DNA of 64,000 nt. Origin: Ostrinia nubilalis. Its lineage: Eukaryota; Arthropoda; Insecta; Lepidoptera; Crambidae. The stretch covers positions 811,001-875,000 of the forward strand of contig NC_087111.1 of assembly GCF_963855985.1 (NCBI RefSeq), given 5' to 3'. Positions 5,826 to 60,512 of this stretch are shown piece after piece (the first letter of the stretch is position 1; each line of letters begins with the position of its first letter). The position numbers were made by a program, and so were the translations under genes. The notes under the pieces were generated by a model. The model worked only from the letters and a program-made list of their open reading frames with translations, did no database searches and was not told the DNA's origin.

Positions 5826-5905
5826 GAGGGCCAAAGGCGGGAATCGAACCCATGACCTTTCGCTTGCCGGGCGACTGCTCTTTCATCTGAGCTACTTAGA
5901 CACTG
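5826..5905 (-). mobile_element. tRNA-derived SINE head (family A)
   Basis: Minus strand reads GTAGCTCAGATGAAAGAGC (A box) and GGGTTCGATTCCCGCC (B box). It lacks a matching acceptor stem, so it is a SINE and not a tRNA gene. Confidence 0.7.
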
Positions 5906-5959: not shown

Positions 5960-6175
5960 AGCGTATTACACTTGACGACGGGCTCATCCAGTGTCAAAGT
6001 AGTTCAGATAGAAGAGCTGTCACCCGGCATGCGAAAGGTCGTGGGTTCTATTCCCACCTTAGACAGTTCGATTACCACCTTAGGTAGTTCGATACCCACT
6101 TTAGGCAGTTCGATTCCCACCTTAGACAGTTCGATTCCCATCTTAGGCAGTTCGATTTTTTCAAGTTATTTTATT
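5960..6175 (+). mobile_element. tRNA-derived SINE (family A) with B-box minisatellite
   Basis: Plus-strand relative of the copy at 5826-5905. After GTGGGTTCTATTCCCACC a 21-bp unit (AGTTCGATTCCCACCTTAGGC, with variation) repeats about five times from 6044 to 6155. Confidence 0.7.
6044..6155 (+). repeat. 21-bp minisatellite containing the B box
   Basis: Five head-to-tail 21-bp units, each GTTCGATNCCCACCTTAGNC-like. Seemingly grown out of the SINE promoter box. Confidence 0.85.
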
Positions 6176-7078: not shown

Positions 7079-7438
7079 TAATCAATTGTTACGCGGTCAC
7101 AATGCGACCGCTTAGGGATTGATGGACTAGTAAGTAAAATACTATAGGTAAAGGACCAAGTGCTTTTATAGAGTATAATCTTCTTCTTATCGTGTCGACA
7201 ACAAACCTAAATCACATAGGCACGGTTTTGTGAGCGGACTGGTTGGACTTCGGTTTGTCATCGTGGTGCAGTGATTCGTTTCACGGCTTCTGCCGCTACT
7301 CAAGGGAGGGCCTGAGCAAAGGAGTCGCTCTACCTACGGGAAGGCTTACTGCATCCCCCCATGTGCATTAGACTAGAATGTAAACGTCTTATTTATTTGT
7401 ACGGACTTGAAGTCTGAAACCGTAAATTATTGTTCCAG
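7079..7438. other. Oamb intron, no gene seen
   Basis: Moderate-GC block at about 7190-7365 (starting CTTCTTATCGTGTCGACAAC) resembles 19620-19660 and is a dispersed repeat. The rest is unassigned, ending in the TTGTTCCAG acceptor. Confidence 0.5.
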
Positions 7439-10400
7439 ATATGGATATTCGGCGACGTGTGGTGCTCGGTATGGCTAGCGGTGGACGTATGGATGTGCAC
7501 AGCATCCATCCTGAACCTGTGCGCCATATCCTTGGATCGGTACGTGGCCGTGACCAGGCCGGTCAGCTACCCTAGCATCATGAGCAGGAAGCGGGCTAAG
7601 GCGCTCATAGCTGGGCTGTGGGTGCTGTCGTTTGTGATTTGTTTCCCTCCGCTGGTCGGATGGAAGGATAAAAAGGTAATTCCTTCATAAAAATATGATA
7701 TAGTCATCTTTCTATCTCATTTACATCAGTAAATAGAACTCCCCGTATACATCCACTGATCCTTGACTATTTCCTCACAACCATTAACAGATACCTCCCT
7801 CTGGAGATATCAATCATAGTTAGACTATATCTAATATTCTGTGAAAGCTACATAATAATATTAAGATCATAATGTAATTAATTGCAGATTAGTTTCTTCT
7901 AATTTTCAAGATAGTAAGAAACGTTTAATCCTTTCAATTTTGACGACTAGTCTTTTCAATATTTTGATCCGCTTGTTTACGTCATGAGAAATTCAAATTA
8001 TTGCGACAGTAATAACATCAGCCCTCAGTTTCTCTTAATTTTGGAATCTCGTCATAAACAAAAGATTTATTTTTTACCCACAGCCCGAAGAAGCCGAGAA
8101 AGACGGCTGGGCCCCCAACCCCCCTTGCCCCTGGACATGCGAGCTGACCAACGACGCCGGTTACGTGGTGTACTCCGCTCTTGGATCCTTCTACATCCCC
8201 ATGTTCGTCATGCTCTTCTTCTACTGGAGGATATACAAGGCAGCAGTGAGGACTACTAAGGCCATCAACCAGGGGTTCCGGACGACGAAAGGTACATCCA
8301 TTGGTAAGTATCCTGACCCTTTTCTTCTTTACTTTACATTTATGTAGTTGCTAGATCTTGAAAATTCTTACTTTTCATCAGTCTGTCAGACGTTCAAAGG
8401 AAGTGTTACTAAATGCTCCATTATAGTTTGTTACCTACTTCCAACTCCGAAGGTTACTGATTGAACACTTCTTAAAACTTTTTCAAACTTCGCCGTTCCG
8501 TTTTCCGCAGAACAAGAAATAACTTTGCACATTTATTTTACTCTCAGTCAGCCAAATCTTCTTCTTACTCAAATACAACAAAACCTATTATTTTTGGTTT
8601 TGGTAACTGATCAAACCAAACTATTTCAGGTAAAGGCATGGGCAGCCGCTTCGATGACAACCGACTGACCCTCAGGATACACAGGGGCCGAGGATCTGCA
8701 CGGCCTCACGGCTCACCGCTGTCAACTGCATCCAATCACTCTACAAGTACTTCGCTGAGTGCCTCCCCTGAAAGGCTTAGAAGGTAAATACATAGTTCTT
8801 CTTGGCCGTTATACTCTTGGCAGGGCAGTTGTGGTCACGTCAATGCGTCGACATAGATTGTAGAGGCGGATACAACTCTCCACACGATCTCCCGCCATCT
8901 CTCCCTGTTAGCAGACTGGTGCAGTACCTAAATACCTAATTACAGTTCACTAAACGCCAAATCTTTTACTCGTACGGTTTTCGTAATGGGTCATAGAGGA
9001 TTTCGGGTTAAATAAATTTAGTAAACGGTTTTCTTTTCTAAATAGACACGGGTGTGGCTGAACCTATCAGAACATAGGAAATACCAATGTTCCCTAACAT
9101 ACAATACACACGTGTTTTCTCTTCCCTACAGAAATTTAAAAAATCCAACACCATTTTCTCGTATTATTTTCCTTCAAAATAATTAACACGATCAATTTTC
9201 TATTTCCAGGCATTCCAGTGCAAGGCGAGCCCACGAAAAAGTCAAGATTTCTGTATCCTATCCCTCATCTGAGCAGATTTGTCCAGCTCTAGAGAACTCC
9301 CGATTGGAGAACTCGCGGTCCCCCAGCCGGTCTCCGAGCCCGAGTTTATACGCTGTTCACTACGAGAGGGACGGTAGAGAGCTCACTGAGAGCAGACTGA
9401 GGGTCAGACCGCCTCCTCAGCATTTGGCTCCAGGACCTCTGTACGATGAGTATGATGATAAGCCAAGGACTACGAGAAGGATGGGGAAGAGGAACATTAA
9501 AGCTCAGGTTAGTCATATTATTTCATTTCGTAGCCTAATGCTTCAACCACACCAATCATGCAGATCGCCATCGCTGGCGCGATCACGACGCGATTATAGG
9601 GAAATGACAGGTCGCGTGAACTATCATGGGTCGCGCGACCTGTCATTCACCTTTGATCGCGTCGGCGATCGTGATCTGCACGCGTCGGTGTGGTTGAAAC
9701 TTTAATCCTTGTTGGTAGATCTAAGCTAAATAATACTTGTGTTACGACTAATGAGTTGGTTCACCACAATAAATCGAGCGGCGGTGGGGTTCGAACCAGC
9801 GTTCTTCAGGTCTCGAGTCAGCCAGTCTGATACCATTCACCGTTTGGCTATCATAGCTAAATTCATTCTAACTACTCTGCTTACAATGTAACAAAAGAAT
9901 GTCAGAAGCTCTAATACAATTGTTACCCTATTTATGCATCCTAATACCTTAGGTACCTATCCAAATAAATAACTGGACCCATAGCTCACGATTCTTTATC
10001 AATTTTCAGGTCAAACGCTTCCGAATGGAGACCAAAGCAGCCAAGACCCTCGGCATCATTGTGGGCGGCTTCGTGTTCTGCTGGCTGCCATTCTTCAGCG
10101 TGTACGTCGTCCGCGCCTTCTGCGAGAAGTGCGTCACGCCTATCGTGTTCTCTGTGCTCTTCTGGTTGGGCTACTGCAACTCTGCCATCAACCCTCTCAT
10201 CTACGCTTTGTTCTCGAAGGACTTCAGGTAAAGTAAACTTCTGTTCAGATCCTTTTTCCAATAACTAAACGTTGAAAATCCTATAGATTCGGTGGCGTGA
10301 CAGTTTGATCAAGCCTGCCAAAAGCATCTGGACGTGAGCAATGCAGAACCGTTCGTTGTGGAAATCCTTGAGGGAGATCTTTGTCCAGTGGTTTTTTTTA

Positions 10401-17700: not shown

Positions 17701-20700
17701 TAGCCCAATGGTGTCAGTGTCGGACTGGCCGACGAGATCCGAGGAACCACCCACTATTGTGGTGAACCCAATCGTATTTAGATCACCACGTCGGGTTAAC
17801 GGGACAAAATCGTTAAAAAATAAGTATGCGTTTAGAGATAAACAGATCACAAAAAAATTGGAGTAAACCATACAAAGTCCTTGGAGTTTGAATGTAGGCC
17901 GTCACACCTCCGCGTTGATAAAGGTTATTTCCCGTTCAGCCCGCATTCCGATAGGAGATAAGTCCAATGATATCGAATTTGTTTTGACGGATCCATTGTA
18001 AGTACATAATTCAAATTTCCCTCCTGTGGAAAATCTCAGTATTCCTTATGTCGATATGTGACTCACCCAATAAGTTGTTTAACTATTTTCCCTGTACGTA
18101 GAGGTTGAAAATATCTACTTTACGATTCAGAAAAAAATCTTAGACACGCCGCAGACTACAAACTTTTTCGGGTTTGCCTATCAGTATGAACATTTTATGG
18201 AGGTTTATCGGTATGACTTTACACCGATTTGGTATGGGCCAATTCTTCATACAAATGGGAATCCCACCAAACTATCGGCCGGCTAAAAGTAGTCTCTGCG
18301 GGGAGTCCTAATGTACTTAATCATAAAAATAATTACAAATCTATTTTTCACCATTATCAAAATCAAAATCAAAAGTATTTATTCAGTTTAGACCACAAGT
18401 GGCACTTATGAACGTCAAAATATTATTATAGAAAATAATAAAAAAAGAAAAGGTAGCCCTTATGGGGCACTTTACATGTCTCCTTATCTTTTGGGCCCTA
18501 CCAGCCGGCCCTATCTTCCTGCACATCAATTACCACTATCAAAATTCAATTAGCAAAACATGAATTCTTTTTTAGTCGTGCTTGTTTCTTTTCTTAACCA
18601 GTTCCTAATTTGTTAGTGATTTTTAAAATCAATTAGTTGAAAGTCTAAAATCGAATAATTATCAGTGTATCAATGAACAATGCCAAGTTCATGATCTATC
18701 GATCTATTGAAGAGTGCGATAGCGATAACGCGTCGTACACTATTGTATGGTTTATCGATTTTGAAAAGTTAGTCCGTTTGTTTTTGTTTTGCCACTAACA
18801 TTAGGTTACATTTTCAGAGGAGTGTTGTTACTATTACCTAACTTGAAACGTTTACCTTATATCAGTTCAGAGAAAAAACCACAAAACCACTATAGTCGTT
18901 CTTAGAACTACAATAAGGCTCAAAGAATTAAAAAAGCACACTAGGTACGTACACTAAAACGTAGGTATAATAAAAGAAGATGATGACGTAAAATTGTTTT
19001 ATGCCGATAACCAAAACACGTGTTTTATGAACAATGATAAAACAGGTAATTTCAGACTGAAATTAATATAAAGTACCTACCTAAATAGTATTTACTACGC
19101 AATAATAGCATACGGAAAGAACAGTGCAATGGCCCTTCAAAAGGGGCCAAGTTTCTAGAATACACTTCTAACTATAAACCCCCTTTCACTGGTATCTGAT
19201 AAGCAATCTGGTTGATAGAAATTTTATTAATTTCGCGATAAACATTAACTGCGGAGTAATAATTTGTGTCATGTTATTAATAGTATCTACTTGATACCAT
19301 TAGATTACGTGTTTTAAATATTTTTCGTGGGGGTTCATTATTGTCTTCGGCCACTTCAAACTTGTTTTCGGCAGCCTAATCTAGATTTATTATATTTTCG
19401 AAATGACACCGTTATCAGACCTTGAATGAGATGTTCATTATGCATTTATTGCATAGCTTCAAATTTCCACCTGAGGGGTGGCAATTCCGATCTATGATGG
19501 AGCGAGCTTGCTCAGCAAATGCGTAAGGCTCAATTTAAGTCACTCAATAGCATAAAAGCTGTTGACTGAGTTAGAATTTTCACACACATTTTAGAATTTC
19601 AATTGAGAGAGAACTTCTTCTTCTTGTCGACAACAAACCTACACAGTGTCCAAAACTTCACCACAAGAGTGGCGTTGTCAGTAGCCTTCATTAAATCCTC
19701 CTGCGTGCAGTTGCTCGGGCACTCAGGGCACGACATCATGTGCTTCGTCGACATTGTAGGTTATAGGTGTATTCAGTTCTAGAACTTAATGATATAATAG
19801 ATGGAAACTAAATGACAATTAATTACTATCTTCCTTTATAGCGGTGCAACACATTCGAACCTGGTCATCTGCGATGGCACCGGCCAAGTGCTTGGCACAG
19901 CCAGTGGGCCGGGCACCAACCACTGGACCCTTGGCATCGAGGGCTGCGCCAACCGCATCGTCGCCATGCTCAAAGCTGCCAAGATCAACGCTGGTCTTCC
20001 TGTTGATAAACCTTTGGATAGTTTGGTGAGTTTAAAAATGATTGACTGTAAAATCTTCAGCGACATGCAGTGCTTCTTAAACATCACAAGTCAGTTAAAT
20101 ATTAAATCTTCCACAAATAAGATAGGTATCAATTAGAAACAGTACGAGCCTAGCCTGGTTGACAATGAGATGTATTTACAACACTTGACCAATGTCAATT
20201 GCAATTAAACCAGAAAGACAATAAAATCAATAACTTTAGTTCAAGGCTATTACAATTACGCAACTCATTAAGCCTATTGAAATCAATTTATGAATTGAAT
20301 TCATGATTAATATAACCGTCATAAAAAACTTACAAAAATAATGAAATAATTAGACAAATATCAGTATTATTAACTTGTTTTCCTTTAGCCGAACAGTTTA
20401 CCTAAACATAATCTAAACTACACACACGAGTAGTCCTGAAATAGCATAACAATAACCAATGACATCAAATCAACTCCCCAGGGTCTGACGCTGTCAGGGT
20501 GCGAGCAGGAAAGCAGCAATGCAGAACTAGCAGCGCGCGTGAAAGAGATAGATGCTGACTGCGCGCGCGCCATCTACGTAGCGTCCGACACAGCTGGGTC
20601 CTTGTTCACTGGAGCGCCCAATGGGGGAATGGTGCTGATTGCTGGTGAGGATCGTTAATAATAATTGACCTTTTTGTATCGCGCAAAATGCTCATGATAC

Positions 20701-23700
20701 ATTGAGTTGCAATTGAAGCCACTTGAGCAAAGATGAAAATCAAATGGTATTCGTTATCGGTCACGTAGTCTGATACACTTGGACAATGACTCCTTAACAC
20801 TAGAGTGCTCGCGCGGGTGACATATGTCACCCAGGGTGTAAAATTTGTAAATATTTTTTCAAGGTATCGAGCTACAGTGCTGCCTTCTCAGGTATTCTTC
20901 GAGCATGTATTGACGCACATTTTAGTAGTAACGCCATCTTGCTAGACGCATCAACGTGAGTGCAGAAAACATTTAAAGTGTTTGGGTGACGCATGTCCCC
21001 CGCGCGAGCACTCGAGGAATTGTTTGATCCCCTATCGTCGCGGTTTAAAATCAAGTTTACTTTCATGTAAGCTCAAAGTTATAATTTTTAACAATTTTTT
21101 AAACATTTACAATAATTATATTGTTTTATAAGAATAAACTGATGCAAGAAAGTAGATGTTTTAGATTGTATGCAATGTAGTAATAATTCACCTAGGACTA
21201 TAAAATTAAAAACCAGGATTCTTCAGGGCTTGCGAGAACACCAACTAGCACAAAACTTGCCAGTATTGTGGCAAAGGACGATGTGTTTTTTGCACAAGAG
21301 CAAGAAATCGAAGCACTCGTAAGCAAATGTAACAAGTGGAACAGGCGTTTTTGTACAGATCATCAAATCGTATCGTGCCCGAGTTGTGATCAAAATATCA
21401 CAGAATAAGATCAATTTATTGATTAACTTTCTAATTAGGTGATATTTTTGCCAAAATAACGGGTCAAACGACTATTTAAACTACTTTGGTCTCTTCGACT
21501 CTAAAATATTTGAAAAATATTGAAGTATTTCTTTTGGTTTATAATAAGAGTTCATGAAAGAAATTCTCACTTTTTTAAATTATTTAGTAAGAAATATAGT
21601 TGATGTTTAATATTATAAATTGTTTTACTTGTATTAAATAAGATTAGCAAAAATAAACTCATATCAAAATGGGGGACATATGTCACCCGCGCGAGCACTC
21701 TAGGAGTATTTAGGGGCGCGAGCACTCTAGTGTTAAAATAGACGACTCCTTTTGGCAGACACTCAAAAGATAAGCAACTTTCATTTTATTACTACATGTA
21801 GGTACTAACAACATTTTTGTTTTGGTTAAATGTACCTAAAACCTAACCTTTATCTAACTCAATTTATTCTAAAAATGTTTTAAGATGTAATTAATCCTTA
21901 GGGATGTTCCAAAATACCGTTATTTACCGTTGTCATATTAAAATAATAAATATTAGCCTAAGTAATGTTTATTTAAAATGGCATTTAGGAAGCAGATTGG
22001 ACCTTGACATCATTAATATTCAATGTTATTGATGTTGGTCCACGTTCTCCGAGTTCAATGATTCGAGCTGATAATAAATTAAGTTTACACATTAAATGTT
22101 GTGTTAACAAACGATAAAAGCTCTTAAAACGCGAGCAAGTTGAGTAGGTAATTTAAGACGATGATTTTTTTAATGATTTTTTGTATAACTAATGTTGTAT
22201 TGTATGTTATTGTGAGGACCACAATAACAGGGTTCAAAAGTAGGCCAAGATTGTGAAATTGGGCCGTCTGCGTCCCACGATAACCTCTCAACTTGGCATT
22301 GCGGTGCAGATAGATCCTGAATAAACAATACTGTAATGTTTATGTGTACATCTATTCTGTGTTATCAGTCGCTAGTGCTATAATATTCATGAGCAACAGG
22401 CTTACGTAAATATAATTAAGTATTCAATTAAATTCTTAAGTTTTACGAACTTGTGTATTTATATTGTGAGTTTTACATTAATTTATTGCATTAAAAGACA
22501 AAGGATTTACTTTATTAATGAATTTATAAAGATTCGCCTCACATCCACATAATACATCTTTTCAGTTGTTTCCAAATTATTTCTCTAAGCAAAATAACAT
22601 TTGCACAATCTTGATAACTTATTAGGATTAACACACTCAAGCACGAAAATTCCGTAACAATAACAAAATTACTCTTACAAAACATAAAATCAAATTAATA
22701 CACTACCGCCATAATGATAAGGTATGTTTTACGATAAGAACATTTATCATGAGGCAAATGGAAAGTATCAACACATGACAGGGGCGGGTTCAGTTCAAAT
22801 AGGTACATATTTTATGATAATAATGTTAACACATCATTTACATGCTCTGTTGATAAGAGGCGCGGCGTGTTTTCAATGTAAAGTGCAATACTGTGCCGTG
22901 TACCTACTCAATGGCTGCCTACGATAGCTTCTCTCTTACATCATAGCGTTCAGTAACAGATACAGTTGATTGAGTTTTAAAAAACCACTTTCTATTTCAT
23001 ACGAAGACACTAAATCATTAAGGTACTACCTGATATACTTGTTTATTGACTCGTCTAATTTTGGAATTATAATATCAGTATTTGTGAAACACGTGACTCT
23101 GTTGTTATTGTTACCTACACAAAACGATACGGATCTTTATTCTAGATTATCAAATGTCTCGAACCGATATTAAAAATCAGTCAAGTGAGTGTTCGGCTCG
23201 CCTGAATCTTAATATTTTATTTTACCTTTTCATATTCACTTGATAATATTTTAGTTCAATTATTCAAAGATGTTTTTTTTTTTTTGCAGGAACTGGTTCA
23301 AATGCTTTGTTGAGAACACCGAGTGGAGAACAGCATGGCTGCGGTGGGTGGGGCTTTCTACTGGGAGACGAAGGAAGTGGTACGTTCTAAGGATAATCAA
23401 ATCAGCCATCTTTTGACCGCAGCTTCGCCCGCAATACGGTCTGTCACACAAAAAAAATTGCGTCCCTGTCAAAAACAGGGATAAAACTCCTGTTTTTTTT
23501 TCTTAACAAAGACGAAAACATCCCCATGAATATTATTTTACTATCTATTGGTGAAACCATTCAATTGTTTCGAGTTATACGCGAACAGACAGACAGGCGT
23601 GGCAAATAACTTTGTTTTATATCCTCAGTTAATAATGTTTTTATAAGTGTCATTTTAAGATTAATATTTTTTATTAATCAGTATCAATGACATGTGTAAA

Positions 23701-25777
23701 ATACGGATGGTCTTTACCAGACTCCAGTCAGCTAATGGGGTCAGTGAGATAATGATTTGTATGAGCACATCATTATTAACATGTCAAGGGAATATTTTAA
23801 TAATTCTTTTTGTATTACTGATATTTTTTAAATATTAGTGTGCAGCATCAGAACAATATCAACGCTACTAGATTCTCGCATTTATTAGTTTAATTATTAA
23901 TATTTCAGCGCCGAATGGTTACAACAAACACGTTATTTAATTTCCGTTTAATTAAATAGATTAATAAATTTAGTTAAAAATAAGAATAACATTTTGTAAC
24001 AGTTAGTTAACCTCCAATTACGAAAACCGTTAAGCATTTACTTAGGGCTTTTAATCTGAAACGTTCAACACTCTTCCTCATTTCTATTCAGATTCAAGCA
24101 TTATTCTTATTCAAATGTCAGAGAGGAATAAGAAGAGGAATCAAGAAACTCATGTTATTGGGTTCTCATAAGTAACGTTTTGGTTACAGCATACTGGATT
24201 GCACACCGCGCCGTCAAAACCGTGTTCGACGACATCGACGGCTTGAAACCTTCTCCGCATCCGATCCACAACGTCTGGGAAGTCATCAAAGAACACTTCG
24301 AAGCTGACACTAGAGCAGACCTGTTACCACACGCCTATAAGCATTTTGACAAACCACAGTTTGCTAGTAAGTTTGATATCACTAATCAAAGGCTTCAGAG
24401 AACATTAGGTATAAAAACTGAAGTGTTAAATTACATTGTGAACCTTGAATAATAAATTTTAATAATTAATTTCAGTTCGCAAAATCTACTTCATAATTAT
24501 TGTATATTCAACCTAAATTTAAAAGAATTACCAATTAATATTCCGAAATATCTTAATGTGTATTTCCGTTCTTTAATTTTAAGTGTAAAAATCTTAATTT
24601 CAATTAAACAGAAATACGGGTCGCAACGCGACATTCTTTATATTTTTCTACTATTTATAAGTAACTAGCGGCCGCCCGCGACTTCGTATGCGTGGATCCT
24701 GTTTTATCCCCTTTTCCCGAATTTTCTTTGCTATAAACCTCACGGAGCCCGAGACCGTTCCAACGAATGCAAAACCGTGGAAATCGGTTCGTGCGTTCTG
24801 GAGTTATAGCGTCAGGGAGGAAAACCCGACTTATTTTTATATAGTAGATGGAACGTGAAAGTTTCAAATCTTTTCTTTTATTTCCAGGTGTAACAGTGAA
24901 ACTGGCCAAATTAGCGAACCGTGGGGACTCGTTATCCCAACACTTATTTGCTGAAGCCGGCAGCGCTTTAGCGGCGCATATAGCTGCGCTAGCGCATAAG
25001 GCCACCGCCTCAAGACTGAGGGTGGTCTGCGTCGGATCTGTCTGGAACAGCTGGGACGCTTTGAAACCGGGAGTGTTGAACGAACTTCACAGTCGACGGG
25101 TAGGTCAGTCATAACGTGTGTGCAAATTTTGACTAATGTCATATTAAATATGTCATATTAAAACTCGAGAACGGCTAGCCGATTGAGCTGATTTTGGTTT
25201 TAAAATGTTTGTCGTAGTCCAGGGTAGGTCTAAACGGTGAGCAAATACGCGCGCGATATTGTTTTTCTGTGACAGACAAATATCCACGCGGGCGAAGCCG
25301 CGGGCGGAAAGCTAGTTTATAATAAAATATTGCAAGTTAAGCCAAGATATTATTTAGTGTCAAACCTTTAGATACCTACATAATTTGACACTTTGAGTAT
25401 GTAGTGTTTGTAAATAATAATTTTCAAAAGATATTTTAGATAAATATTTACATTATAATTATAATAATGTATTTTTCATCTTTCAGGTAAAACTTGAACT
25501 GGACTTCGTGCGATTGAGGGTATCTAGCGCCATGGGAGCTGTATGGCTAGCGGCCAAACACGTCGGCTTCGATCTACCCCGAGATGACTCGGCATTCTGC
25601 TCAGTCTTTTTCACTTACGCCCCGGACTGTGCCAACGGGATAAACGGAACGAACGGGTCTAATGGGGTGCACGGGAAGTGCAATGGGGCGAATGGGAAAC
25701 ACGAAAACGTCACGTGCAAGGTAAATGGGAACATTAATGGGGTGACGATGAACGGTGAAGTGTGCGGCTGCTATTGA
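14788..25777 (+). CDS. Nagk: N-acetylglucosamine kinase, complete, seven exons
   Basis: Cytosolic kinase that phosphorylates GlcNAc to GlcNAc-6-phosphate in amino-sugar salvage (BadF/BadG/NAGK fold). Exons: 14788-14822, 19842-20025, 20482-20644, 23290-23379, 24190-24366, 24888-25099, 25487-25777; 1152 nt, 383 residues, all phases consistent. Seen motifs: N-terminal phosphate loop FGGVEGGATHSN (residues 7-18), sugar-binding TNHW (37-40), probable catalytic Asp109 in SDTAGS, GTGSN (128-132), [19 protein letters not shown], and CVGSVW near the C-terminal lobe. The start is the first ATG, placed directly before the phosphate loop as in the family. The body is about the usual 345 residues; an extra tail of roughly 45 residues, rich in Asn-Gly, follows. 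Intron 1 is about 5 kb and holds retrotransposon and SINE debris; intron 3 holds a piggyBac relic. Confidence 0.93.
14823..16994. other. Nagk intron 1, first part
   Basis: AT-rich with no gene seen. Short open stretches at 15784-16270 on the minus strand have no codon bias or recognisable motif. Confidence 0.5.
16995..17275 (-). mobile_element. Jockey/R1-like retrotransposon 3' end with RNase H-side tail
   Basis: Minus strand encodes [20 protein letters not shown], then [17 protein letters not shown] and a TAA-type tail (plus-strand (TTA)n at 16990-17005). The Cys/His block is typical of the C-terminus of such elements. Confidence 0.75.
17695..17830 (+). mobile_element. tRNA-derived SINE (family B)
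   Basis: Head ATAGCCCAATGGTGTCAGTG and body CCCACTATTGTGGTGAACCC match the family-B consensus. Confidence 0.65.
18219..18300 (+). repeat. Dispersed repeat shared with 35476-35560
   Basis: CACCGATTTGGTATGGGCCA to ACTATCGGCCGGCTAAAAGT; same order of blocks at 35476-35560. Confidence 0.65.
18357..18530. repeat. Dispersed repeat of LINE 3'-end type
   Basis: Starts (CAAAAT)n, AAGTATTTATTCAG, then ATGTCTCCTTATCTTTTGGG and CCTACCAGCC. Related pieces at about 565-690 (after a (TTTGA)n run) and 1135-1215. Confidence 0.55.
20794..21736. mobile_element. piggyBac-like element, decayed
   Basis: Bounded by TTAA on both sides (20794-20797, 21733-21736), the piggyBac duplication. Ends are an inverted repeat CACTAGAGTGCTCGCGC. 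The palindromic block GGGTGACATATGTCACCC lies just inside the left end and near-matches recur at 20982-21015 and 21668-21700. Contains a relic of a piggyBac transposase C-terminus. Lies in Nagk intron 3. Confidence 0.88.
21240..21409 (+). pseudogene. piggyBac transposase C-terminal Cys-rich domain relic
   Basis: Reading [18 protein letters not shown] in one frame and, after a one-base shift near 21330, [13 protein letters not shown] and SCPSC to a TAA. Spacing of Cys and His fits the zinc-binding C-terminal domain of piggyBac transposases. The catalytic core is absent. Confidence 0.65.
21737..23289. other. Nagk intron 3, second part
   Basis: AT-rich, no gene or clear repeat seen; ends in a T-run and the TTTGCAG acceptor. 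Confidence 0.45.
23405..23625 (-). repeat. Lepidopteran short interspersed repeat
   Basis: Minus-strand copy: GACCGCAGCTTCGCCCGC, GTCCCTGTCAAAAACAGGG, GAACAGACAGACAGG. Confidence 0.55.
24655..24850 (-). repeat. Lepidopteran short interspersed repeat
   Basis: Minus-strand copy in Nagk intron 5: AACTAGCGGCCGCCCGCGAC to GGAAAACCCGACTTATTTTT. Confidence 0.65.
25160..25317 (+). repeat. Lepidopteran short interspersed repeat
   Basis: Plus-strand copy in Nagk intron 6: ends CACGCGGGCGAAGCCGCGGG and GGAAAGCTAGTTT. Confidence 0.65.
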
Positions 25778-26887: not shown

Positions 26888-27230
26888 AACGTTATTATGA
26901 GTAAAATGTTTTTCTTTTATTTGATTAACTTGACTTAACCACTTTCAATTGAAAAGTGAAAATTCGACCAGTCACGGTGCAGTTCAATGATAGAAACAAG
27001 TGAACTATTTTTCCATAGGAATGCTGAGTTACGGTGATTGTTTTTGCTAGCTTATTATTAAATCAGTAAGTGAAAGCCATGGAATGAATGAATGATTTCG
27101 AATACTATTTTAATCTGTGTACGAACGCCCAGATAACGGTATTTTACCGTTATTTTCGTCCACATCTCTAAAGTCGACATTTGCCAGCTGTCATTCGTCA
27201 AGAAGTGTCATTTTTTCACAGTTGACAAAA

Positions 27231-29764
27231 ATGTCAATAACAAAGAGATTTTCTCGTATTTATTTTAATTTAAAACCAGTATTCAACGCTAATTACAGAT
27301 GTTTAAGTCGTGTTATTCCAATTTTCGATAGTAAAAACAGTTGGCGGGGGAGTAAACATGGGTACGTTAGCATATTCGCGATCGCCGCAGGCGTTTTAGG
27401 TTATGTAGGTTTAAAAGAGAAATTATTTGCTGCTGAGCCTATTGGGAACGAATTAAAAGGTAGACGAGAGAAGTATAACTTTATAGCTGACGTGGTTAAG
27501 GTTTCGGCGCCGTCTGTGGTGTATATCGAGATCAAAGATGGGAGAAGACTGGACTTGTTCAGTGGGCAACCTATAACCCTTTCAAACGGGTCTGGGTTCA
27601 TTGTGAAGGAAGATGGGCTCATTCTGACGAACGCTCACGTTGTGGTGAATAAACCTAATGCTGTGGTCAGTGTTAGGCTTATGGTGAGTTATTAATGGCC
27701 ATATCTTTATTGCATAACAATATTGATGCGTTACATGTTCGGCATATTATGAAAAACTAGTTTAGAATGAATTTAATGAAATAAATTAATTATTAAAAGT
27801 AACCTTATAGTAATAGGAGTCAAATCAAAAGGTTTTTCTCTTTTGATGAAAATTTTAATTCCATGAAATCACCTTAACTTAAAAATTAAATATTTTTAGG
27901 ATGGATCAACTCACACTGGTTTTGTGGAAGATGTAGATATGAAATCAGATCTAGCAACCCTACGGATCCCTGTAAAGGGTCTGCCAATTATGAAGCTTGG
28001 CTCTTCAGCGGACATCAAACCCGGGGAATGGGTAAGAATTTATTCTTATTACTTTTTGCTAGTAGTTATGATAAATATGGTGAAAAAAAGCCATTTTTGG
28101 CAAAACGACTTAAAATAGAAAAGGACAGAAAAGAAACTCTGAAATTCAAATAACATGAAGCTGTTGCTTTATATGCCTAGTAATAAAGCTTTTTTATTAT
28201 TTATGCTGGTACTCAATAAATCAATACTTTTACAGGTAGTAGCTATGGGCAGCCCCCTGGCATTAAGCAACACGGTGACCGCTGGTGTTGTGAGCTCCAC
28301 ACAGAGGGCCAGTGAGGAGCTAGGACTTAGAGGTAAGTTTTGAGATTGAAAAATGCTTAAATTCCATTTGACCTGATGTTCATGTTATGTCTTATGTTGT
28401 TAACCTTTGTTGTATACTAACATGGAGCAATAAATAATTTGAATTGATTACTGTGCTTTATTGCTATAGCTTTAATTTTCAAATTATTTTTCAGGCAAAG
28501 ACATGGTCTACATCCAGACTGATGCACCAATCACATTCGGAAACAGCGGCGGCCCACTAGTCAACTTGGACGGTGAAGCGATCGGTATCAACAGTATGAA
28601 AGTCACATCGGGCATTTCATTTGCTATACCCATCGACTATGTAAAGGACTTTTTAGCTAAAAGTAAGTGTGATTTTGTTTGCGTTTATAAGATAATAGTG
28701 CTTTAGATAAATATTGTTTTGGTGTAAAAAATCTTTGTATTATCTTATCTGTTTTGATACTGTTGATGGATTAAAATGAAAGTTAAGAATTGGGTGTTTT
28801 TTAAAGATGAAGATATTTTGTCTAATGAGGGCTATCGTTTTTATACTTAACAGCACCCCTGGCGATTGACAGGACCTTACTCTACAGTGGCGCCATCTTG
28901 ATGAGTGCAAATGCGATAGTCCTCCTACCACTTTAGCGCTCACCAGTTGGTGCCACTGTCTTCGCTACTAGCAAGTGACAGGACATTACTCTACAGTGGC
29001 GCTAACTGGTGAGCGCTAAAACGATAGTCCTCATTAGAAATTACAAACAAATAAAACACCTCAAAGAAAAGCATTACAATCTAGGTACTTGTTTTCTTTT
29101 CTAGGGACAACGAAATCACCTCAAGTGTCCAGACGATATCTGGGCATTACGATGCTGTCTCTGACTCCCAACATTCTGATGGAACTTCGGATGAGGAATC
29201 CAGAGGTGTGTATAAATCTTGGTAAATTTAAGTTTACTATTACATTAACAGTGCTATGGAGTGCTATAACGAGTCCCTGAAAATGATCTAGCTAAATGCA
29301 AGTAGATTTTGGAAAAATGTGATAATGCAAATAGACATTTAAAATTTTAGATGCCAAGTGACATAGAGCATGGGATCCTGGTTTGGAAAGTCATCATCGG
29401 GTCTCCAGCTTATAAGTGAGTATCACTTACCATCAGGTGATATACAGGCCAAGAGCTTCCTAGTTGTGGATAAAAAAAATAGATCATTTTTAGCCGACAA
29501 AAAAAGATACATAAAGACTTGGCTATATTGAATATGCCTTGGCCTTTTACTGCAAAAGGAAAAACAGAAAAATAAAATAAAATTTTCTTTTCCAGCGGAG
29601 GCCTCCAACCAGGCGACATAGTGACCAGCATAAATGGAATACCAGTGCATAGCGCAGCTGACATCTACATGCTTCTAGAAAAAAGCAGCGGCAACCTCAA
29701 AGTGGAAGCCGTCAGAGGGCGCTCCCGGGTGACCCTGACTGTGGCGCCGGAATACCACGGATGA
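27231..29764 (+). CDS. HtrA2: Mitochondrial serine protease HtrA2/Omi, complete, seven exons
   Basis: Trypsin-like protease with a PDZ domain that works in the mitochondrial intermembrane space in protein quality control and, when released, in apoptosis. Exons: 27231-27683, 27900-28031, 28236-28332, 28495-28662, 29105-29205, 29351-29415, 29596-29764; 1185 nt, 394 residues. Visible order: basic mitochondrial presequence (residues 1-43), membrane anchor about 45-61, then the protease with the catalytic triad His136 (TNAHVV), Asp168 (SDLATL) and Ser245 (FGNSGGPL), then the PDZ domain (about 285-390; [21 protein letters not shown]). ATG 27231 has a good insect context (ACAAAAATG) and is the first in-frame ATG. 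After the anchor the sequence reads AAEPIGNE, which does not match the usual Ala-Val-Pro-Ser type IAP-binding motif. A palindromic repeat lies in intron 4. Confidence 0.94.
28866..29030. repeat. Palindromic repeat in HtrA2 intron 4
   Basis: TTAGCGCTCACCAGTTGGTG is followed by its near complement CGCTAACTGGTGAGCGCTAA. A second block GACAGGACNTTACTCTACAG occurs twice as a direct repeat. Confidence 0.6.
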
Positions 29765-31498: not shown

Positions 31499-34400
31499 AT
31501 GATTTTTGTTTTTACTGGATTTTTGTTGCTGGTAAGCTAAGCCTATGAAGGTAATTTTTCAAATTCATCAAAGTTATTTTTACCGCAAAATTAAATTTTA
31601 CAGGTTTTTCTAGAAAATGCGAGAAGCGATGTGGATGTACCTAGTTTTCGTTCTAGTAAGTAAATAAAAGTAATTATTTGTCATCATCATCATCATCAAC
31701 AGCCCTTTACAGTCCACTGCTGGACTATGAGCCTCCTCCACTATAGTGGAGGGTTTTGCCATAATCTCCACGCTTGGCAGGCGGGTTGGAAATCGCAGTT
31801 TAAAAGATTGATGTTTTTCAGAGAGCGCTGCTGCCCATTCTCTGTTTGATGTGTAGTCCCTAAGTCGCCTCTTACGACACCCGCGGGAAGAGTAGGGGGT
31901 GGTGACAAATGTATTCTACTCTGCCGTCACCACACGGCTTAAATATTTGTATTAATTTATAAATTAAAAATCTTCTCTGTTCCTCGTTGAAGCCAAATCC
32001 CCAATGACTTAGTAAGTTAAAAGTATTTTAGAGAAATTCTTCAGAGGTTCTGGGTTACATTATCAAAATGGACGGAAATATAAAAATATTTTAGAAGATT
32101 TTACTAATGGGATTTTTTTGAGAAATACATTTGACGTTAAAATATTAATATCGTTGATTAAAAATATTACAATTAAAATACTTAATAAAATACAGGTTGG
32201 AATGAAGAAGGCAAGCCGATACTGCGTATGGGACCAGAGAGCAATGATTTTGAAGCAAACCCAGGTATAGTACATAATGAATGTTAATGTTCAGAGACAT
32301 TTTCTGTTTACCTATAATCTCGGCAGGTACCTATAAATATATTCCCAAGTTAATGGAGTAAGGAAATAACTTCATAACAAGAAAGACCCAAAATTGTAAA
32401 ACTTTTTAATGTCTTAATAAACGTTTGAATCAAATCAATTCTAAACCCATTCTTGAGTAGAGTTGCCCATAGGCAAAAAAATCTTGATAACAAAATGAAT
32501 CTTGGAAAAAAACACCAATAAGAATTTTCCAACTTTTTTTAATTTAAAAAAAAGCAACTGTTTCCGCCCGGGATCGAACCGGGGGCCTTGTGCGTGTGAA
32601 GCACACGTGATGACCGCTACACTACGGAAACTTGAGAGCTACCGACGAAATTATAAGTAACTTGTCTAGTTACTCTGTAAGCTATCAGTGCCAGATCAAG
32701 GGGAATAAGATCATTGCTGCAGGCAATGAAAACCGGAGCACCATCAAATCAGACTATAATGTTTTGATGCAAAATAACTTTTATTACAGCTACATAAGCT
32801 GCCATAGTGTTTTATAATCTTCAAGAGATGTCGTCCAGTTTACTTTCACAATAATTATAAAAATAATTGTGATCGATCACCTTCTACAATCGTTACTATA
32901 AGTTCAGTTGACAGCACATCAGACATTTTGTCGCTGACACTGACTTGCTGTCGTCTTTACAAACGCAGAAGCGAGGAGATTACGGGACTGGATCTAGGTA
33001 GGCATCATAATCGTTATTTTGTATAATGTCTAGTTTCTTTCTTCCCAGCTGCACCCAAGGTAGAAAGAGGTGAAGCAGCTGACTGGCTCCAAGGATTGCG
33101 CTCAGGGATATACGGCCTCGTGCAAAACTACGGCTACGACAGAGCTAAGCCGTATGTGAAGAGACTTGTAGACGGTAAGTTTACTACTAAAGTTAAAATA
33201 CTTGAGTAGAATTTAGTACCTCGTTCGTTCGTTTCAGCCAAATGACATCTGCTGCTGGACAAAGGCCTCCCCTAAGGATTTCCACAATGAAAAGTCCTGC
33301 GCCGCCCGCATCCCGGCGTCCTCCTCCCACGCAAGGTTCCAAAAATCTCGAACGATATGGTCCGGTTTCCACCAAAGCGAATAGCACGAAAAACTTTAGA
33401 GTTCGAATCGTTTGCGTATTCGAATCGCCATCAAAAGATTTAGTACGAAAACTACAACAGCGCTGCAGCGCAATTTAGTATGAGAAATGGTTACACGAAA
33501 CTTATTTTGAGAATCAAGATTGTCACGTTATCGTTTAACTTGAAGGTTGAGTGTCGAATTTTGTCGAATACGCAAACAATTCGAAGATGATAGTTGTTCA
33601 TGCTAGAAGCACAGAATAAGTGTGTAATAGTAGGTACCACTAGAGGTAAATCTGATCGGTTATTCAAACATTTATCTCCTCTCCATTCCGCTTTGGGGGC
33701 AACCGGGCCTAAAAAAGTTCTGTCCTTCCTATTTACTCTCTATAGTAAGTTATTATTTATTTGTTATTTCAGATACGGAGAAAAGAGAGAACGTTCTTCT
33801 ACACGTGGAGGGTAAAACTCTATTTTTTTTGTTTAATTGATAAAGTTAATAACATGTTTTGTTAAACATTTTGTATTCTACCCAGTTAACCGCGATGGTA
33901 AGTTCATATCCACGAGTTTGTTACCTAAATTGACTGAATAGTTTTCAATATTTTCATTGAGTTTTTATTTTTATTATAAGGTACGACAAGAATAAACTAC
34001 AAGCAGTATATGCGTGCAGCCGATCCCCGTAAGTTATTCAAAAAAGCTGACCCGGCGAACTTTGTACCGCATATGTTTAACAGAAATAATATAGGATTAT
34101 TTTCTTATGCCCGTTTTCACCATCAATCCTTAATTTTTAAGTGAACCCTTTGGTAACACATACATAACAGGAATTTTGTTTTCATAGGGTCACTTAAAAA
34201 TTAGGAAATCGTAATTACCTAAGTATTCGCACCTTGACTTTTTTTTTTCAGAAATCCAGTGGCGTAAGTGATTTTTTTCATTCATTCATTTTATAGCAGG
34301 AGAATGTTAAGTACTTATACTTAACCCATACATTAAATCATTTTTATAAGAAACTGGAGACCATAAATATGTTTTTACAAAACCCCTCATAGCTCTTCCG

Positions 34401-36019
34401 ATTATCCCTAAAGCTTTGAAGTTTGAAAGGGAAGCTTTGGATCATTCTCTCAAAAATACCCATAGAGTACTGTAGATGTTATAAAAAATCATGTATAGCC
34501 AATAGTAGCCAACCTCTTTTTGCACCGTTTTATTCAGAATTTATTCCTCTTAACTCTACGCTATAGAATGGTACCTAGGTACGCTAAAGACTATAAAGGT
34601 TAACTAGGTAAATATTGACACCATTAATTCAGAACTGCCTAAAACGCAACTCTTTAAGTTTTTGTATTGTAAAGTAATAGTAAAAGTCGTTTGCTAATTA
34701 ATTTATCGATTGCAAAGCAACTAAAGAAAGATAATTTTAAGCTAAATTAAAAACTAATCAGTTTGTCAGGCCTGGGACAAAAATTTTGGCGAATTCAAAG
34801 GAGCTACTGGGACACCTTGAAAATGTAGTTTTTTAAAGAATTTGGTTTTATTGTGGACTGATGTTAATTTAGTTCCTAATTTTTTTTTATGCATAACAAG
34901 GCAGGTATTTGACCACAATCGCACCTGGTGTTAAGTGGGATGCAGTCTAGGATGGTACATTATCTGCTCTGTAAGTTTATTTGTAAATATTTGCAGCACC
35001 TACACCCGCGCCCCCGCCTCAATGGATAAACGACATGAAGGTGTTCATCAAGAATCTGGTGGAGAAATACGGAAGGAGCAAACTGGACGAGCATTTGAAG
35101 CCCGTTATAAAATGTAAGCTCCATATTTAGTTGATTAATTAAATATCCTAGATTTAACATTTCAAGCACCAGACCAGGACACCAGACCACGTGGTAGATC
35201 ACCAATGAGATGGACGGACCAGATCAAGGCCGCAACTAAATGTTCGATTAGCGAAAGTGCTCGGAAAGCTGCAGTCCGCGAGGAATGGCGCCGTATTGCG
35301 AGGAACATCACTCATCGTGATTCACAATGATAACCACGACCACGACAAGAGTGTACCGACTGAGAAGAAGAAGAACATTTCAAGAAACATTTAGCATCCA
35401 CCACCGATTTTTGGTTGGCTGATAGTTGGGTCGTGCTGTTAGGATCAGTATGGAGATGTATGAAATTGCGCACATTACACCGATTTGGTATCGGCCGATT
35501 CTTCGTACAAATTGGAATCGAGCTCTACTATCGGCCAACTAAAAGTCGGTGGTGGGCACAGACCACCAGGCTTAGGCAGTACCAGCAAAATACAGAACAG
35601 TATTTTTTCTTATTCTTATTATATGGGTGGGTTAGTTTGGAAGTTTTATAAAAATATTTTTGTTCCAGATGTGGAAAAGCTACACAACGTTTATATTAAG
35701 GATATTGATGGTAAGATCCATTTTAATTATCTACATAGTCTGTTTGGTAACTTAAATTATTAAAAGCAAATAAATAGGTAATATTCCAGTGATTAAATAT
35801 CCCAGATTAATCATTGTTTATTTTTTCAGTCGATGAATTTGGTAAGTCAAATTTTATTATTTACTAAATCAACTACCTATCTATTTAATTAGTCTTTTTA
35901 ATAATAATTCACACTTCGAATAGAAATGTTTAGAATTATTAAGTTATTTACACTAATTTTTAATTACAGGTGAAGTTATAATAAACTACGCGGAGAGACC
36001 TAGCAGTATACTTGGATAA
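31499..36019 (+). CDS. Unrecognised predicted secreted protein, twelve small exons, duplicated module
   Basis: No family recognised. Exons by splice consensus and phase: 31499-31531, 31604-31655, 32196-32264, 33049-33174, 33773-33811, 33886-33897, 33981-34028, 34252-34263, 34997-35113, 35669-35710, 35830-35841, 35970-36019 (TAA). Together 612 nt, 203 residues, no internal stop. Intron 1 is phase 0 and all ten others are phase 1. The first 14-18 residues (MIFVFTGFLLLVFLENA) look like a signal peptide. Exons 4-7 and 9-12 encode two related modules: each opens with W followed by LVxxYG, has a Lys-rich helix, and closes with G-x-x-x-I-N-Y. A Pro-rich linker (PPTPAPPPQW) separates them. Three exons are only 12 nt, which is why no long open frame is visible. 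A poly(A) signal AATAAA lies at 36087-36092. The join of exon 3 uses a weaker donor (GTATAG). Function unknown; a hemolymph or secretory-tissue protein is one guess. Confidence 0.78.
31683..31945 (-). mobile_element. Retrotransposon 3' end with (CATC)n, second family
   Basis: (ATC)n, TCCACTGCTGGACTATGAGC, TAAGTCGCCTCTTACGACAC and CACCACACGGCT; a common lepidopteran LINE tail. In intron 2 of the microexon gene. Confidence 0.65.
32546..32553 (-). terminator. Pol III terminator of tRNA-Val
   Basis: Eight T in a row on the minus strand, six bases after the mature tRNA 3' end; T4 or longer is the standard Pol III stop signal. Confidence 0.8.
32559..32631 (-). tRNA. tRNA-Val (anticodon CAC)
   Basis: Complete cloverleaf on the minus strand, 73 nt with discriminator A. 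Acceptor stem GTTTCCG pairs with CGGAAAC. The A box is TAGTGTAGCGG and the B box GGTTCGATCCC. The anticodon stem TGTGC/GCACA encloses the loop TTCACAC, giving anticodon CAC. A run of eight T (plus-strand A, 32546-32553) follows the 3' end as a Pol III terminator. All four stems pair well, so this looks like a working gene rather than a SINE head. It lies antisense within intron 3 of the microexon gene. Confidence 0.95.
33221..33345 (-). mobile_element. RTE 3' tail in microexon-gene intron 4
   Basis: CGTTCGTTCGTTTCAGCC, AATGACATCTGCTGCTGGAC, GCGCCGCCCGCATCCCGG. Confidence 0.8.
34110..34205. mobile_element. TIR MITE fragment (family of 4079-4203)
   Basis: TGCCCGTTTTCACCATCAAT and AATTTTTAAGTGAACCCT, then TCATAGGGTCACTTAAAAAT; right end incomplete. 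Confidence 0.65.
34885..34957 (-). mobile_element. Jockey-like 3' end (family of 42613-42912)
   Basis: Minus-strand: TTATGCATAACAAGGCAGG, TTGACCACAATCGCACC, GATGGTACAT. In intron 8 of the microexon gene. Confidence 0.8.
35160..35372 (+). mobile_element. Non-LTR retrotransposon C-terminus, third family
   Basis: Encodes RPRGRSPMRWTDQIKA, then ARKAAVREEWRRIARNITH and a stop, the usual end of lepidopteran endonuclease-reverse transcriptase proteins, then GAAGAAGAAGAA. In intron 9 of the microexon gene. Confidence 0.75.
35476..35560 (+). repeat. Dispersed repeat shared with 18219-18300
   Basis: CACCGATTTGGTATCGGCCG to ACTATCGGCCAACTAAAAGT. Confidence 0.65.
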
Positions 36020-36086: not shown

Positions 36087-36092
36087 AATAAA
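36087..36092 (+). promoter_or_regulatory. Poly(A) signal of the microexon gene
   Basis: AATAAA 68 bases after the TAA stop at 36017-36019, in AT-rich sequence; the only such signal before the next repeat. Confidence 0.55.
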
Positions 36093-37745: not shown

Positions 37746-37957
37746 TTGAGTTCAACCTCAGAGTCATATTATTAATTTTATCTTAATAGGATGTTTGTAT
37801 TTCATTCTCCCCATTGACCCACATAAACAAGGTCCTTTTAATCCCTGAACCTTGGACTGAATCAAAAGCCGCCTGCAGCTGTTTACAGACGACAATCTCG
37901 TCCCCATCAAACGGGACGGGGACGGGGAGCAAATTACACAAGATCACCGCAATCTGC

Positions 37958-38555
37958 TATTTCCGGGAGGGCGACCAGCAGTCCCAGGGTGGTGTCGGGT
38001 TTATCGTCCACAAGTCCCTTGTCAACAACGTGGTCCAGATCGAGAGTGTTTCGGCGAGGGTAGTGTACCTGATACTCAGAATCACCAAACGGTATTCGCT
38101 GAAGGTCATACAGGTATACGCACCGACCACGGAACACCCCGACGACGAAGTGGAGACCATGTATGAGGATATTTCCAGAGCCATACATGGCTCCCGGTCC
38201 CATTTTACCGTTGTGATGGGGGACTTCAACGCGAAGCTAGGTAAACGAAGCGATAATGAGCCGAAAGTGGGGCAATTTGGGTACGGAGAGAGGAACGCAC
38301 GTGGCCAACTGCTGGCTGGCTTTATGGAGAGGGAGGGCCTCTTTATGATGAACTCCTTCTTCAGAAAGCCAAAACAGCGAAAGTGGACATGGCTGCATCC
38401 CAATGGCGCTACAAAAAATGAGATAGACTTCATCTTGTCGACGAAGAAGCATAGGTATATTCAATGATGTCTCTGTGATCAATTCGGTCAAAACAGGAAG
38501 CGATCACCGAATGGTAAGAGGCACATTGAATATCAGACCCAAGCTCGAGAGATGA
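37958..38555 (+). pseudogene. RTE endonuclease domain, truncated and frameshifted
   Basis: C-terminal two thirds of an apurinic-type endonuclease. Visible motifs are GGVGFIVHKS, QVYAPT, the catalytic GDFNAKLG, FGYGERNARG, RKWTWLHPNG with NEIDFIL, and after a frameshift near 38460 the terminal SDHRMVRG. The N-terminal catalytic part is lost by 5' truncation. A TGA at 38553-38555 separates it from the reverse transcriptase, which continues in the same frame, so the parent element probably had one long polyprotein. Confidence 0.85.
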
Positions 38556-38570
38556 GATGATGAGCTACTG

Positions 38571-40649
38571 ATGAAGTCTACGCTCCGCCCAGCGCCCATC
38601 CAACTCCAAAACCCCGAAAGCTTTCAGCTCGAGTTGCAAAATCGTTTCGAATGCCTAGGAGACTGCGAAAATGTGGACAAATACAATGACAGGTTCGTGG
38701 AAATTGTCCAAACGACTGGGTCTAAGTTCTTTAAAACCCGTCGTTCAAAAGGAACCAAAAAGATCTCTGACCTCACCAATCAACTCATGGAAGAGAGACG
38801 GAACTTGGTTCTGCAGTCCTCTGAAGATGCTGCTCAGTATCGGCGCCTTAACAGACAGATCTCCAAGTCTTTGACTCGCGACCTACGCCAATTTAATACA
38901 GACCGTATTAAAGAGGCGATTGAGCGAAACAAGGGCTCTAAAGTGTTCGCAAGAGATCTGTCTGTTGGCCAAAGTCAACTGACCAAGCTGAAGACAGAGG
39001 ATGGCAGAGCCATTTCGTCGGGGCCGGAGATATTGGAAGAGGTCGAGAAGTTCTACGGACAATTATACACGAGTGTACGTGCACCTGTCACAAATCTAGC
39101 CGAAGACCCAAGAGCTAGACTGACCCGACACTATACCGAAGATATCCCGGACGTCAGTCTGTACGAGATTAGAATGGCTCTCAAACAGCTGAAGAACAAC
39201 AAGGCACCGGGTGATGATGGAATCACGGCTGAGCTTTTGAAGGCAGGCGGAACGCCGGTACTGAGGGCTCTTCAGAAGCTGTTCAATTCCGTCATCCTCG
39301 AAGGAAAAACGCCTACGACATGGCACAGAAGTGTGGTGGTACTCTTCTTCAAAAAAGGTGACAAAACCTTATTGAAGAATTATAGACCCATCTCACTTCT
39401 GAGCCATGTCTACAAGCTGTTTTCAAGAGTCATTACGAATCGTCTCGCTCGCAGGCTCGACGACTTCCAGCCTCCCGAACAAGCCGGTTTCCGAAAAGGC
39501 TTTAGTACCATAGACCACATACATACGCTAAGGCAGATTACACAGAAGACCGAGGAGTATAATCAACCACTTTGCCTGGCGTTTGTGGATTATGAGAAAG
39601 CCTTCGATTCGGTCGAGACCTGGGCAGTGCTACAGTCTCTCCAAAGGTGCCAAATTGACTATCGATATATCGAAGTGTTGAGGGGTTTGTACAAAAACGC
39701 CACAATGTCGGTCCGCCTCCAGGATCGGGATTCGAAACCTATCCAGTTGCAGCGAGGGGTAAGACAGGGAGACGTCATATCTCCAAAACTGTTTACCACC
39801 GCCCTGGAAGATGTCTTCAAGCTTCTGGACTGGAACGGATTTGGCATAAATATCAACGGCGAGTACATCACCCACCTTCGATTCGCGGACGATATCGTAG
39901 TCATGGCTGAGACCTTGGAGGATCTAGGCACAATGCTCGATGGCCTCAGTAGAGCCTCTCAACAAGTGGGCCTCAGAATGAACATGGACAAGACAAAAAT
40001 CATGTCTAATGTCCGTGTTGCACCCACTCCTCTGAAGGTTGGAGACTCTACACTCGAAGTTGTCGACAATTATGTATACCTGGGACAAACAGTCCAGTTA
40101 GGTAGGTCCAACTTCGAGAAAGAGGTCAATCGTCGAATCCAACTCGGATGGGCAGCGTTCGGGAAGCTTCGCCATATACTCATGTCCGAAATACCGCAGT
40201 GTCTCAAGACGAAAGTCTTCGAGCAGTGTGTGTTGCCAGTGTTGACATATGGATCCGAAACGTGGTCGCTTACTATGGGCCTCATAAGGAGGCTCAAGGT
40301 CACCCAAAGGGCGATGGAGCGGGCTATGCTCGGAGTTTCCCTGCGTGATCGAATCAGAAATGAGGAGATCCGTAGGAGAACCAAAGTAACCGACATAGCT
40401 CGCAGAATTGCTAAAATCAAGTGGCAGTGGGCGGGGCACATAGCTCGTAGAGACGATGGCCGTTGGGGCAGGAAAGTTCTCGAGTGGCGACCACGGGCTG
40501 GAAAACGTAGCGTGGGCAGGCCTCCTACTAGGTGGACCGACGATCTGGTAAAGGTCGCGGGAAGAGCCTGGATGCGGGCAGCGCAGGACCGTTCATTGTG
40601 GAAAACCTTGGGGGAGGCCTTTGTCCAGCGGTGGACGTCATTTGGCTGA
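38571..40649 (+). CDS. RTE reverse transcriptase, 692 codons open
   Basis: Reverse transcriptase of the RTE-type element; it copies element RNA into DNA at a nicked target. The frame is uninterrupted. Seen in order: N-terminal helical region; fingers with NNKAPGDDGITAELLK; PISLLSHVYKLFSRVI; QAGFRKGFSTIDHI; VDYEKAFDSV (first catalytic Asp); RGVRQGDVISPKLF; RFADDIVV with the catalytic pair Asp440-Asp441; LGQTVQL; and the lepidopteran C-terminal block TKVTDIARRIAKIKWQWAGH to VQRWTSFG. The ATG at 38571 is simply the first after the internal stop and is probably not the original start. With the endonuclease truncated, this copy should not be autonomous. Confidence 0.9.
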   Translation: MKSTLRPAPIQLQNPESFQLELQNRFECLGDCENVDKYNDRFVEIVQTTGSKFFKTRRSKGTKKISDLTNQLMEERRNLVLQSSEDAAQYRRLNRQISKSLTRDLRQFNTDRIKEAIERNKGSKVFARDLSVGQSQLTKLKTEDGRAISSGPEILEEVEKFYGQLYTSVRAPVTNLAEDPRARLTRHYTEDIPDVSLYEIRMALKQLKNNKAPGDDGITAELLKAGGTPVLRALQKLFNSVILEGKTPTTWHRSVVVLFFKKGDKTLLKNYRPISLLSHVYKLFSRVITNRLARRLDDFQPPEQAGFRKGFSTIDHIHTLRQITQKTEEYNQPLCLAFVDYEKAFDSVETWAVLQSLQRCQIDYRYIEVLRGLYKNATMSVRLQDRDSKPIQLQRGVRQGDVISPKLFTTALEDVFKLLDWNGFGININGEYITHLRFADDIVVMAETLEDLGTMLDGLSRASQQVGLRMNMDKTKIMSNVRVAPTPLKVGDSTLEVVDNYVYLGQTVQLGRSNFEKEVNRRIQLGWAAFGKLRHILMSEIPQCLKTKVFEQCVLPVLTYGSETWSLTMGLIRRLKVTQRAMERAMLGVSLRDRIRNEEIRRRTKVTDIARRIAKIKWQWAGHIARRDDGRWGRKVLEWRPRAGKRSVGRPPTRWTDDLVKVAGRAWMRAAQDRSLWKTLGEAFVQRWTSFG

Positions 40650-59822: not shown

Positions 59823-60512
59823 TTTCCTTCCTTTCAGCCAAATGACGTCCACTGCTGGACAAAGGCCTCCTCCAAGGTTTTCCACAATGCACGGTCCTGC
59901 GCTGCCCGCATCCAGGCTCTTCCCACGACCTTTACCAGATTGTCGGTCCACCTAGTAGGAGGCCTGCCCACGCTACGTCTTCCAGCCCGTGGTTGCCACT
60001 CGAGAACTTTTCTGCCCCAACGGCCATCGTCTCTACGAGCTATGTGCCCCGCCCACTGCCACTTGGTTTTAGCAATTCTGCGAGCTATGTCGGTCACTTT
60101 GGTTCTCCTGCGGATCTCCTCATTTCTGATTCGATCACGCAGGGAAACTCCAAGCATGGCCCGCTCCATCGCCCTTTGGGTGACCTTGAGCCTTCTTATG
60201 AGGCCCATAGTAAGCGACCACGTTTCAGATCCATATAATTATCAACACTGGCAACACACACTGCTCGAAGACTTTTGTCGTGAGACACTGCGGTATTTCG
60301 GACGTGAGTATATTGCGTAGCTTCCCGAACGCTGCCCAGCCGAGTTGGATTCGACGATTGACCTCTTTCTCGAAGTTGGCCCTACCTAACTGGACTGTTT
60401 GTCCCAGGTATACATAATTGTCAACAACTTCGAGTGTAGAGTCTCCAACCTTCACAGGAGTGGGTGCGACACGGACATTAGACATGATTTTTGTCTTGTC
60501 CATGTTCATTCA
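59823..60512 (-). mobile_element. RTE fragment, 3' third, same family
   Basis: Reads on the minus strand from MNMDKTKIMSNVRVAPTP to VQQWTSFG, closely matching the element at 37958-40660. It is 5'-truncated after the FADD motif, and a small insertion (TAATTA around 60235-60243) breaks the frame at the VLTYGSETW position. The 3' tail runs into a CTTTCC-rich stretch. Confidence 0.88.

Follow-up and report, generated by a model that had tools for sequence, protein, structure and literature searches.

What does a chain of twelve short exons in the genome of the moth Ostrinia nubilalis encode, and do two of its stretches, which resemble one another exon by exon, descend from a single ancestral block? 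The chain lies at positions 31499-36019 on the forward (+) strand of the window, by which we mean the whole stretch of 64,000 nucleotides that was analysed (NC_087111.1, positions 811,001 to 875,000; C24:811001-875000 in the 495-Mb genome). Judged from the sequence, both the gene and the duplication of a module within it very probably are real; with somewhat more reserve we favour, as the best explanation of the locus as a whole, a real gene for a secreted two-module protein that arose from a duplicated cassette, the gene apparently being single-copy.

The original prediction had proposed a twelve-exon gene containing a duplicated four-exon block, and this chain could be rebuilt in full from the window: its exons measure, in order, 33, 52, 69, 126, 39, 12, 48, 12, 117, 42, 12 and 50 nt, all 11 introns (72 to 784 nt) are bordered by GT-AG, and the joined coding sequence of 612 nt, including the stop, translates into 203 residues. 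The join of exons 1 and 2 is in phase 0 and all joins from exon 2/3 onward are in codon phase 1; every length from exon 3 to exon 11 is divisible by 3 and each of these exons starts one base into a codon, so that the block can be duplicated or skipped in frame. Within the gene span, the + strand carries 14 copies of the donor-like pentamer GTAAG (expectation about 5) and the - strand one, donors of the model accounting for nine of the 14.

Module 1 is encoded by exon 4 (33049-33174), exon 5 (33773-33811, the charged stretch DTEKRENVLLHVE), the 12-nt microexon 6 (33886-33897, VNRD) and exon 7 (33981-34028, GTTRINYKQYMRAADP), whose acceptor reads AAG instead of YAG. Module 2 follows the same order, with exon 9 (34997-35113, the Pro-rich linker and then the module), exon 10 (35669-35710, the charged stretch YVEKLHNVYIKDID), the 12-nt microexon 11 (35830-35841, VDEF) and exon 12 (35970-36019, GEVIINYAERPSSILG and the stop). 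The large exons 4 and 9 share a motif, as had been claimed, the correct form of which is W-x7-I-x2-LV-x2-YG rather than the wording first given. Aligned, the products of exons 4-7 and 9-12 are identical at 16 of 57 positions (28%; BLASTP expectation value E 7e-8 for this single comparison), and their score was reached by none of 5,000 double shuffles. As the chain could have been chosen for its very likeness, splice choice was also left free: downstream of exon 9, splice-like sites can be linked into 827 chains (826 distinct products), among which the predicted chain is the top scorer against the full module 1, and none of 1,000 shuffled versions of module 1 reached that score with any chain allowed (extrapolated p about 1e-4). 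The comparison of exon 4 with exon 9 alone, in which no splice choice is involved, was equalled in 1 of 20,000 shuffles. The introns after LVD/VIK, HVE/DID and NRD/DEF fall into identical alignment columns in both modules (3/3); this agreement and the alignment indicate that both modules descend from one cassette. Exon 3 as a third copy of the module was not supported by a shuffle test. The locus is a clean example of the duplication of a module along with its introns, 12-nt microexons included, the exon structure recording an event which the protein sequence shows only modestly.

The predicted protein contains no cysteine and likely is secreted, as had been suggested: read by eye, its N-terminus is a likely signal peptide (residues 1-19, with 13 mostly hydrophobic residues), which begins in exon 1 (31499-31531, MIFVFTGFLLL, donor GTAAG) and ends in exon 2 (31604-31655, VFLENARSDVDVPSFRS), where A17-x-S19 fits the -3/-1 rule. 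If cut after S19, the mature part would comprise 184 residues with a mass of 21.2 kDa and an isoelectric point of 5.7. Exon 3 (32196-32264) places Trp30 amid charged residues (SWNEEGKPILRMGPESNDFEANP), NEEGK following directly, and the 12-nt microexon 8 (34252-34263, QIQW) starts the linker, whose Pro-rich part, PPTPAPPP, stands between the modules; such a linker had been described. Exon 4 alone (33045-33173, with one intronic codon at its start), modelled by AlphaFold2 without an alignment, is predicted to form a helical hairpin with helices 8-29 and 31-42 (mean predicted local distance difference test score, pLDDT, 88.3); searched with Foldseek, this model found no match in the PDB. To judge from its hydrophobic periodicity, the tail is compatible with strands in module 1 and, with less clarity, in module 2. 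The architecture put forward here would be one of two modules in tandem, each about 60 residues long and probably consisting of a helical hairpin with a strand-like tail behind it, the Pro-rich linker connecting them.

Several results weigh against this reading. Exons 10-12 taken alone resemble the tail of module 1 weakly; 4 of the 827 chains beat the model and 1 ties with it, and with free splice choice the score was equalled in 107 of 1,000 shuffles, which is not significant. The score of exons 10-12 was not reached in any of 150 stretches taken as controls from 41 kb onward, but this control is lenient since its stretches offer a median of 152 chains as compared to 827. Exon 9 alone (34999-35112) was modelled by AlphaFold2 as one helix (8-33) without a hairpin (mean pLDDT 81.8), so these models do not support an equal fold for both modules. 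Short helical peptides often score well in structure prediction, and both models can therefore be regarded as mild support only. Finally, the closest known architecture, that of the seroins discussed below, offers a likeness by architecture and description only.

The search for homologues of the joined 203-residue protein, which had been proposed as a check, also lent the gene no support: among 5.8 billion proteins, many of moths included, no homologue was found, be it with the complete sequence (E up to 1; 84 candidates shared words) or with the segment that holds the two modules (E up to 10; 8 candidates shared words), although the search requires shared exact words of 5 residues and a relative at 30-40% identity could be missed. 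As a control, the neighbouring gene for the mitochondrial serine protease HTRA2 (27114-29760, +, end approximate, several exons, about 1.7 kb upstream), joined in part, was searched against the same collection and yielded 7,730 proteins among 7,994 scored; among the 120 matches listed, 16 lepidopteran species are named, Chilo suppressalis first with 82%. Moths therefore are present in the collection, which lacks either a close relative or the gene model for one. HTRA2 is well conserved, which the orphan protein probably is not; as many Lepidoptera are represented and none yielded a homologue, conservation cannot support the gene.

Such findings lead to the question whether there is a gene at all. 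A chain picked from plentiful splice-like sites, in a decayed gene or in none, would be in keeping with the ease with which exons 10-12 alone are equalled, with the missing homologues and with acceptors that are more uneven than the donors (in 3 of 11, at most 7 of the 12 bases upstream of AG are pyrimidines). Yet we consider it very unlikely, given that the full module was never equalled under free choice and exon 4 against exon 9 only once, that GTAAG is distributed 14 to 1 between the strands, and that signal peptide, stop and a candidate polyadenylation signal (AATAAA, 36087-36092, +, 68 bases past the stop) are all in place. Taken as a whole, the original interpretation is partly supported.

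If the gene for a secreted two-module protein is real, how widespread is it? Neither Pfam nor the PDB gave a match above chance, in agreement with the original statement that no family fits. In its own genome the protein produced six matches, all inside this gene, and the segment of exon 9 matched only itself, no second copy being found at this sensitivity; relatives in the 80-kb flanks on each side (160 kb) were searched for and none was found (best E 0.17). A widespread family is less likely than a lineage-restricted gene or one that predictors overlook owing to its microexons, and microexon-built secreted genes in general may evade homology search and perhaps gene prediction as well. Since the exons of the cassette are in one phase and divisible by 3 (the last one apart from the stop), the frame would have been kept on duplication of the four-exon block from which both modules derive; likewise, in-frame skipping of any of exons 3-11 could give rise to one-module and two-module isoforms.

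The surroundings of the gene contain further elements. ARAGORN places a tRNA-Val (CAC) at 32559-32631 (-), inside intron 3 and antisense to the orphan gene; in Rfam it reaches 63.5 bits with permissive filters and is unlisted under default filters. Downstream lies a long interspersed nuclear element (LINE)-like element (37790-40646, +) with a 697-residue open frame (38556-40646) containing a reverse transcriptase domain (Pfam RVT_1, E 1.3e-34); by eye, resembling open frames recur at 59837-60509 (-). On the other side, a rhodopsin-family G-protein-coupled receptor, which we take to be an amine receptor, is encoded by two exons at 7418-10228 (+; Pfam 7tm_1, E 8.8e-27 and 2.3e-16). Open frames at 19816-25774 (+) presumably resemble exons of an N-acetylglucosamine kinase and are unconfirmed by Pfam: of three pieces compared, two matched nothing and the third matched at chance level (E 0.12). 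A 21-bp unit is repeated 5.4 times at 6045-6157 and by eye looks as if the 3' end of the neighbouring tRNA-Ala (5992-6066) had been amplified, a second tRNA-Ala being situated at 5828-5901 on the opposite strand.

Which known proteins, then, does the orphan protein resemble? Seroins, antimicrobial proteins of lepidopteran silk and eggs that are close in architecture, were absent from the considerations of the original prediction. Seroins possess a signal peptide, blocks in which Ala, Ser, Glu and Asp abound, linkers with much Pro, and alternative isoforms, very short exons being mentioned in passing; a Trp with charged residues follows the signal peptide at about residue 20 (Sn1) or 35 (most Sn3), and class motifs are RYGG in 17 of 33 Sn2 and VYGE in 17 of 23 Sn3, some seroins being without a motif (PMC6405961). 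Further reports describe a seroin 1 of Yponomeuta with 10 exons and 218 residues, in a tight cluster of three seroin genes (PMC9684489), four clustered seroin-like genes and proteins in two pyralids (PMC9745057), and a seroin C-terminal domain that binds peptidoglycan next to an N-terminal domain that inhibits growth (PMC7765120). Likely secretion, the Pro-rich linker, repeated modules and very short exons are all shared by the orphan protein, which has a Trp amid charged residues near its N-terminus as well, at a position between those of the two classes, and which with 203 residues and 12 exons also comes near to the Yponomeuta protein in size and exon number; by analogy, the closest known architecture is that of the seroins.

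Could it be a highly diverged true seroin (Sn1, Sn3 or the pyralid seroin 4), that is, an antimicrobial protein of silk or egg? The layout, the position of Trp30 between those reported for Sn1 and Sn3, the isoforms and very short exons mentioned for seroins, the exon-rich Yponomeuta gene and the four pyralid genes speak for it. In contrast to seroins, Ala, Ser, Glu and Asp make up 25% and 22% of the two modules, which we judge as ordinary (the source definition gives no threshold), and RYGG and VYGE are absent, NYGY and KYGR being present instead. Seroin genes cluster, yet no second copy of the module occurs in the 224 kb of window and flanks, in which other seroins would not be recognisable without a query, and none of the 5.8 billion proteins matched. 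An exact search of the own genome with a pattern derived from a primer for Bombyx mori seroin 2 gave no match and is uninformative. As module composition and class motifs differ, the protein is not filed as a seroin, and we regard its being one as rather unlikely. A candidate function for the secreted two-module protein would be that of a fast-evolving exocrine protein acting outside the cell, for example a seroin-like protector of silk, saliva or egg; argued by analogy, such a protective role is a tentative suggestion, somewhat less doubtful than membership in the seroins proper. To go by the architecture, the two modules may allow a target, microbial or in the matrix, to be bound at two sites.

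A second comparison concerns the aphid bicycle genes, whose internal exons are numerous and small and begin at codon position 2; a classifier for such genes has been printed (PMC9168663). One crystallised bicycle protein is cysteine-free with two tandem domains (PMC13041983). The orphan gene shares with them small internal exons of one phase (9 of 10 start at codon position 2), a signal peptide, two modules and few or no homologues by sequence. It differs in that the CYC motif, which most members have, is lacking, as there is no cysteine, in that no second copy was found in its own genome, and in that its bearer is a moth and not an aphid. With the published classifier the gene scored 0.097 where 0.72 is the cutoff, and much lower still when the phase labels were read the other way. 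As compared to the saposin-like fold of bicycle proteins, exon 4 alone, which does not cover a whole module, was modelled as a helical hairpin, and strand-like tails, at least in module 1, are unlike a saposin-like bundle. Hence an effector of the moth that converged on the bicycle genes (small exons, two modules, rapid divergence, salivary delivery into the plant) would accord with the exon phases, with the cysteine-free two-domain precedent and with the lack of homologues; considering classifier, motif, tails and copy number it is distinctly unlikely, and any likeness to bicycle genes is at most convergent.

The exons of schistosome micro-exon genes (MEGs) are symmetric and skippable. MEGs encode secreted proteins in short exons of 3-81 bp, as the orphan gene would do in a different phylum; the comparison is by description only. 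More speculatively, and with no better prospects than the true seroin, the gene could belong to a new lineage-restricted family of secreted moth proteins built from frame-neutral microexon cassettes, a family whose gene structure would have converged on that of aphid bicycle effectors and schistosome MEGs; by duplicating cassettes and skipping exons it would create a diversity of modules beyond the reach of sequence search. If relatives exist, a search by gene structure, as used for the bicycle genes, should find them.
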